From: Gammaproteobacteria bacterium
Lineage (GTDB): Bacteria; Pseudomonadota; Gammaproteobacteria; UBA6429; Thiohalophilaceae
NCBI GenBank assembly: GCA_016194635.1
Contig: JACQBC010000025.1
Span: 1-57,420 of the forward strand
DNA: 57,420 nt
Reading direction: 5' to 3'
In this document: positions 18,098 to 18,560 of the stretch, in pieces
Layout: each line of letters starts with the position of its first letter
How positions within the stretch are numbered: the first letter of the stretch is position 1
Notes under the pieces: generated by a model
Databases searched by the model: none
Told to the model about the DNA's origin: nothing
Seen by the model: the letters and a program-made list of their open reading frames with translations, nothing else
Translations under genes and position numbers: made by a program

Positions 18098-18278
18098 GTG
18101 CTGTTGGTTGTTGCCTGGGTCTGCGGTGCGGGTGACCGTCGGCGGCAGGGACGATGTACAGGGAAGTGCAAGTGTCGCGGCAGGCAGGATGCCGTGAGCG
18201 ACTGCCGCCGTCGAGTCTACAGGGACGTATTTACGGCGAATCACCCGCACCGCAGACCGAGGCAACAACCAACAGCAC
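18098..18278. mobile_element. Palindromic element PE-2 (38-bp stem)
   Basis: Bases 18098-18135 and 18241-18278 are inverted repeats of 38 bp with one mismatch. Inside lie a second inverted repeat (CGGCGGCAG near 18140-18148 with CTGCCGCCG 18202-18210) and a GTCGC/GCGAC pair (18173-18177 and 18198-18202). The right core GAGTCTACAGGGA at 18213-18225, followed by CGTATTTACGGCG, matches the core of PE-1 at 1438-1463. A second TACAGGGA at 18157-18164 suggests a nested or duplicated core. The stem has no similarity to that of PE-1. There is no coding capacity. Confidence 0.8.
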
Positions 18279-18520
18279 GGGCTGAGAAGATCGAAATTGT
18301 TTTTTCATTTTCGCTGTACGGTGGTATCTGGATAATAGTTTCTGAATTGTAAGCAGGGACAATGATTGATATTGCTGCACTTATTAAAATATTCTGGAAT
18401 TCAGAAACAGCTATTCAACCTTCTGAATCTCAACGGTGATAAACACCATCACCTGCTTCGCACGACGATAGGGATTTTTTAATAAAGAGTTAATAAGCTA
18501 TTTACTATTGAAGCATCGAT

Positions 18521-18548
18521 GTAATCGGTAATCGGTAATCGGTAATCG
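18521..18548. repeat. Short tandem repeat GTAATCG x4
   Basis: Four perfect head-to-tail copies of the 7-mer GTAATCG just downstream of the rlpA stop. Such tracts can vary in copy number by slippage. Being intergenic and downstream of the gene, no effect is evident. Confidence 0.9.
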
Positions 18549-18560
18549 TAGACATGAAAA

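Follow-up and report, generated by a model that had tools for sequence, protein, structure and literature searches.

Palindromic elements PE-1 and PE-2

The window (the whole 57,420-nt stretch of DNA analysed here) contains two palindromic elements, PE-1 and PE-2, whose parts are all given on the + strand. PE-1, a member of the MITE-like subfamily A, spans positions 1372-1507 (about 136 bp); its ends are placed by the family termini, TAYTACTGAG...CTCAGTAATA-like, and their exact bases are approximate. The left arm (1386-1412, 27 bp) pairs with the right arm (1465-1491) with one mismatch, and between them lie core hairpin 1 (1416-1435), with the loop AGGGAT and CAGGGATG at 1422, and core hairpin 2 with its tail (1442-1463), with the loop AGGGAG, located by its match to the core pattern. 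A ParE-like toxin is encoded on the - strand by an ORF at 1300-1692, which matches PF05016 with an E value of 1.1e-5 over profile positions 15-74 of 89. PE-1 lies where this ORF has its 3' end, and the end of the toxin gene may have been altered or shortened by the element.

PE-2 spans positions 18098-18278 (181 bp); it belongs to the long-core form of subfamily B. Its left arm (18098-18135, 38 bp) pairs with the right arm (18241-18278), again with one mismatch. Core hairpin 2 and its tail (18217-18238, loop AGGGAC) match the core pattern, and core hairpin 1 (18140-18210), assigned from the sequence and the predicted fold, has a loop enlarged by an inner two-hairpin module, U2 (18152-18202), with CAGGGAAG at 18159 and CAGGATG at 18185. 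The RNA fold of PE-2 has a predicted energy of -123.6 kcal/mol (z -10.7 against 200 shuffles). A second TACAGGGA in PE-2, at 18157-18164, had led the preliminary description to suggest nesting, and the independent occurrence of the inner piece supports this: U2 stands alone in the genomes G019, G009, G002, G045, G003 and others, and it also lies inside more long-core copies of the window's own genome (G000). At locus L266, U2 is located in the loop of another ANGGAN hairpin, GGCATC-AGGGAT-GATGCC. Several U2 modules of G019 and G002 (L252-L259) lie in similar, CTCTGCG/CCTCTGCGTT-like surroundings, which would fit a target preference of U2 itself. Beside PE-2 there are also a short tandem run of TAATCGG units (18517-18549) and a 20-bp inverted repeat (18329-18348/18398-18417).

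The preliminary description held that the two elements share a core in the loop while their stems are dissimilar, each nearly perfect within itself. All three points hold. With up to three mismatches allowed, the window has two places that match the core TACAGGGANGTATTKACGGCG and 100 dinucleotide shuffles have none, and each stem, of 27 and 38 bp, has the single mismatch given above. When PE-1 is compared with five other genomes, the aligning part is at most 1405-1471, which is the core without the arms (one further match in that comparison falls outside PE-1).

A core family in gamma-proteobacteria

PE-1 and PE-2 are two of 117 core copies found at up to three mismatches in the 3.71 Mb of G000, where the reversed control pattern gives none. 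The 103 copies that were read comprise 50 PE-1-like (subfamily A) and 53 PE-2-like (subfamily B) elements; 91 lie between two called ORFs, 8 lie within an ORF and 4 are unclear. Relative to the genes, 39 copies are in convergent and 6 in divergent positions, and the 21 sense and 25 antisense copies show no orientation bias. Close pairs of copies occur in contigs C3, C15, C27, C31, C36 and others. Seven of the eight neighbouring pairs less than 1.2 kb apart are in - + order, and there are seven pairs less than 600 bp apart, compared to 2.0 expected at random (2000 trials, maximum 9). The 3' end of one gene carries a subfamily B element in the same-genus genome G001 (L091) and a subfamily A element in G000 (L029), which suggests repeated insertion at one place. 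Within the core, the first base of hairpin 2 goes with the R of ACRGCG, C with G and T with A, and also G with A, the last of which is not a standard pair.

Under a stricter pattern, the core is carried by 8 of 58 genomes near the window's own, which is included in the count. Genera with the exact core, among the matches listed, include Marinobacter, Methylotuvimicrobium, Rheinheimera, Saccharospirillum, Microbulbifer, Aquisalimonas, Nitrococcus, Chromatiales and others, and the exact pattern was found in no E. coli genome. Spread by phages or plasmids was discarded as an explanation, with the exact pattern in 0 viral contigs and a single 25-bp match in plasmids.

The nearest described relative is the Yersinia palindromic sequence YPAL/RU-2 (~168 bp). 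The Y. pestis RU-2 printed in Table 1b of PMC2759123 contains the core cgtccgcgccaaggatggcgcggctcgagcctacatggatgtatttacggcgtc, and by our own reading ANGGAN is present in both RU-2 loops. Like YPAL/RU-2, the elements studied here are palindromic, intergenic and dispersed, and PE-1 (about 136 bp) and PE-2 (181 bp) agree roughly with the ~130-170 bp taken as the size of the type. The differences are that the arms are not those of YPAL/RU-2, and that the target duplications of YPAL/RU-2, at sites with dyad symmetry, are reported to vary between 3 and 26 bp (PMC2229807), whereas TA is duplicated at one Methylotuvimicrobium site described below. The portions of the literature consulted describe neither inversion of the core nor paired change of the arms for YPAL/RU-2. 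PE-1 and PE-2 belong to a single old and widespread superfamily of the YPAL/RU-2 type in gamma-proteobacteria, made up of small mobile elements that are non-coding and far wider in range than described in the literature searched. In each of them a conserved core of two hairpins stands on a long stem formed by inverted repeats. One core links what stood as separate species-level repeats: YPAL and those of Marinobacter, Methylotuvimicrobium and the window's genome.

The nearest Rfam family is the Yersinia sRNA Ysr224 (RF02770), which is matched by L047 on the strand opposite GGA with 47 bits (E 2.3e-8) and by the L100 element with 30.2 bits; these matches are under the gathering score of 70, and the window has no match at gathering level. 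The elements also resemble GTAG- and CGTC-tagged REPs as dispersed intergenic hairpins, and CGTC adjoins core hairpin 1. In CGTC REPs the stem measures 8-9 bp and begins with A/T, the loop has 4-5 nt, the CGTC end is unpaired and the tail is CCA-like (PMC3733652), whereas the core loops here are mostly 6-nt ANGGAN and the hairpin lies inside a long stem. Mobilisation by a RAYT, as in REPINs, is ruled out for G000 by the absence of a match to the Y1 (IS200/IS605-type) transposase profile PF01797, which matches in 38 of the 58 genomes.

The GGA loops and their strand

Both hairpins of the core have loops of the ANGGAN type. With the flanks fixed and the loop free, ANGGAN describes 240 of 249 hairpin-2 loops, although for 116 of the 249 most loci had been retrieved by patterns that already specified the loop; in the less biased sets the counts are 41 of 43 (G000) and 56 of 62 (M. 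buryatense). The first N of the M. buryatense hairpin-2 loops is T in 34, G in 17, C in 9 and A in 2, and among the matches listed 27 of 34 single-mismatch copies differ at this first N and none differs in GGA. Hairpin-1 loops begin with ANGGA in 177 of 200 cases, on many different stems. From GGA to GGA, 193 of the 197 core copies with a measurable pair span 22-24 nt (36 of 233 have no measurable partner), and 21 U2 modules span 25-26 nt. A third module, U3, found in M. buryatense elements, has its GGA hairpins on the opposite strand, and the distance in 11 U3 modules is 25 nt, under a pattern that allowed 25 nt or more.

For the RNA-binding regulator CsrA, PMC7652899 gives the SELEX consensus RUACARGGAUGU, an ANGGAN loop and the bridging of sites 10-63 nt apart; its motif is also given as A(N)GGA (PMC4066749). 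The core agrees with this CsrA/RsmA site description, with two or more ANGGAN hairpin loops at a distance within 10-63 nt, and it looks like a candidate docking-site pair for CsrA. On this agreement we propose CsrA as a possible partner of the core, at somewhat less than even odds. G000 has one csrA gene. Against CsrA, no csrA was found in the element-bearing G021 and G029, although both are fragmented assemblies, and the GGA hairpins of U3 lie on the opposite strand. The decoy RNAs CsrB/RsmZ are similar in having several GGA hairpin loops on one strand, with CAGGA(U/A/C)G-type repeats (PMC7652899). Here, unlike in a dedicated sRNA gene, the sites are borne by dispersed mobile DNA elements with a long stem and two sites per module. 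A more speculative and rather doubtful extension is that gamma-proteobacteria host selfish elements built from standardised core, U2 and U3 modules, each with two ANGGAN/CAGGA loops 22-26 nt apart, a spacing suited to one CsrA/RsmA dimer, and nested in or next to each other, that could act as scattered CsrB/RsmZ-like decoys or as users of CsrA to their own advantage, template switching keeping their stems perfect and flipping the core. Should CsrA indeed bind the ANGGAN loops, many genomes would have received high-affinity sites of a global regulator through mobile elements, and the pool of free CsrA would depend partly on the repeat load. In the parts of the literature searched, including PMC8406273, we found no link of CsrA to these repeats, a statement that holds for those parts and not for print as a whole.

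Among single arm mismatches, read on the GGA strand, G.T exceeds A.C by 54 to 11 in 68 copies from named genera (L111-L190, from at least 116 named stretches), and by 71 to 14 in 84 copies when duplicates are removed and a lower cut-off is used. Subfamily A has 25 G.T and 8 A.C mismatches, and the 47 of 81 M. buryatense copies with a stem score of at least 11 have 81 and 7 (25 and 6 if every context enters a single time). In subfamily B of G000 the bias is absent (18 to 14). The bias is independent of the direction of the neighbouring gene (sense 11:1, antisense 18:3), so it seems that the folded GGA strand matters, and not by way of the mRNA of neighbouring genes. The lack of orientation bias of the G000 copies to genes likewise argues against a simple mRNA role for the core. 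RNA selection through neighbouring genes as the sole cause was rejected, as neither the orientation of the copies nor the G.T bias tracks the genes.

A folded GGA strand could also be read as single-stranded DNA in which the ANGGAN hairpins are recognised by some mobilising enzyme, and not by CsrA, a reading that is possible though we would not favour it. It agrees with a bias tied to the GGA strand regardless of gene orientation, with GGA modules that sit in the GGA loops of other modules (PE-2, and U2 in L266) and with U3 hairpins on the other strand. However, the most obvious class of enzyme, Y1/HUH transposases (PF01797), was not detected in G000; of the 8 genomes with the core, 5 gave no match. 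Families sharing the core differ in their termini and one of them inserts with a TA duplication, which indicates that the core is not the only mobility signal. A strand bias relative to the chromosome is also not demonstrable: one pattern gave only + copies over 3 Mb among at least 348 M. buryatense copies, and a second pattern found - copies there, so that the apparent replication-strand bias was an artefact.

Matching and arrival of the arms

The arms of subfamily A are family-wide. Over positions 8-27, compared ungapped in 46 of 50 copies, identity is 0.767 between copies and 0.752 within a copy, and TA...TA-type termini are present at both ends in 34 of 50 copies. The terminal repeat of the subfamily was counted at 102 places. 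With terminal inverted repeats, TA ends and no coding capacity, PE-1's kind is an ordinary MITE with family-wide arms. The arms of subfamily B, in the 42 of 53 copies with a stem score of at least 19, are 0.97 identical within a copy and 0.40 between copies. A common consensus arm is nevertheless present in 25 of the 42, while 14 of the 42 have no detectable similarity to it beyond GTCAC in a gapped comparison (z <2). Some of the unrelated arms are perfect over 36-48 bp (L047, 48/48; L060, 37/37; L062 and L088, 36/36). The copies read in G012 and in G029 have arms common to each genome, and in M. buryatense the one core is combined with three families of arms, as seen in 81 copies from 20 stretches. 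A single core is thus borne by several element families with different arms, and for part of the material (subfamily A, G012, G029 and M. buryatense) the stems fall into a few conserved families, the outcome that the preliminary description had named as speaking against it.

Changes in the consensus arms of subfamily B are mostly paired. Among 725 cells of the 25 consensus-arm copies of G000, 163 deviations from the consensus are paired and 24 unpaired, and the paired ones comprise 97 transversions and 66 transitions. At one Marinobacter site the element is present in seven species with syntenic flanks, and the arms differ between the species yet match themselves in each copy. Two of the seven, L151 and L181, have the core in place but in the opposite orientation to the syntenic flanks. 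In the comparisons L143/L113 and L172/L176, which stop early there, a whole arm block is replaced in both arms together. Between close Marinobacter orthologs the differences are not mostly paired (paired/single 2/3, 1/1, 3/4, 1/16, 1/5 and 2/5; the 34-nt windows used extend beyond the stem, and the 1/16 pair includes an indel).

According to PMC8604942 (a related report is PMC8794818), template switching homogenises arms, inverts spacers and produces multi-base or clustered changes. Template switching during replication predicts both the paired change and the in-place inversion seen here. The preliminary description had proposed conversion as one way of keeping the arms complementary. For PE-2's kind this is supported by the excess of identity within copies, the paired Marinobacter differences and the core inversion; for subfamily A it is not, where equally long arms show no excess of within-copy over between-copy identity, which is evidence against homogenisation. 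Subfamily A may be younger.

Paired change could also arise by selection for RNA structure alone, if the need for a folded transcript led independent arm mutations to be fixed in compensatory pairs. The excess of G.T over A.C on the GGA strand in the named genera, subfamily A and M. buryatense is in its favour, but we consider it unlikely: subfamily B of G000 lacks the bias, the bias does not track gene direction, the 97 paired transversions have no G.U intermediate, and inversion of the core is not predicted.

The arrival of the arms can be seen at an empty site. Where Methylomicrobium sp. wino1 (~92% identical) has an empty site, M. buryatense carries a cleanly inserted 156 bp with both arms inside and TA duplicated, and the arms of that Methylotuvimicrobium family therefore enter together. 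A second copy of this family (F1) shows the reverse, occurring in wino1 but not in M. buryatense, its flanks being less well matched; a third place holds two elements and gives no clean picture. Close relatives yielded no empty site for subfamily B, and the genus of the window yielded no close one. The spacer orthologous to that of PE-2 is 130 bp in G001 and 694 bp in G000, and neither arm is traceable in it; the arms of L047, with its 48-bp perfect stem, leave no trace in the orthologous G001 spacer either. The best matches in these two spacers have 21/38 and 26/48 mismatches, no better than in shuffled spacers, and the two spacers have diverged too far to settle the point. Arms located in coding ends could not serve to decide the matter, as no arm of the 17 below-threshold copies lies within a flanking coding end.

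The preliminary description had offered copying of one flank at insertion as the other origin of the stems, with only the core and ~5 bp (GTGAC/GTCAC) moving and the stem being neighbouring sequence copied in inverted orientation; the 14 unrelated-arm copies and the long perfect arms would suit this, but the consensus arm of 25 copies, the coding ends free of arms, the G001 spacers and the clean joint arrival of both arms in another genus make it very improbable. The stem families and the wino1 empty site, which shows both arms coming in with the element, the other outcome that the preliminary description had named as refuting it, show that flank copying is not the general rule. It is unneeded as an explanation, a statement that does not extend to the 14 of 42 subfamily B copies with unrelated arms.

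We consider the following account, of a YPAL-type family with unit insertion, homogenisation by template switching and a retained ANGGAN core, to be the probable one. The whole palindrome, including both arms, would insert as one unit at TA, as seen for one Methylotuvimicrobium family. The arms would then drift, and replication template switching between them would transfer changes from arm to arm and sometimes invert the core. The arms of different copies would in this way become unrelated while each copy stays palindromic, a stage that PE-2's kind would have reached and PE-1's would not. The core may be retained for its strand, which would form two ANGGAN hairpins at a fixed distance that one CsrA/RsmA dimer could bridge. 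Joint arrival followed by homogenisation in place would answer how stems unrelated between copies stay nearly perfect in each copy. As a separate observation, M. buryatense carries at L137 (160-336) another repeat-like insertion of ~176 bp that is unrelated to the core and absent in wino1.
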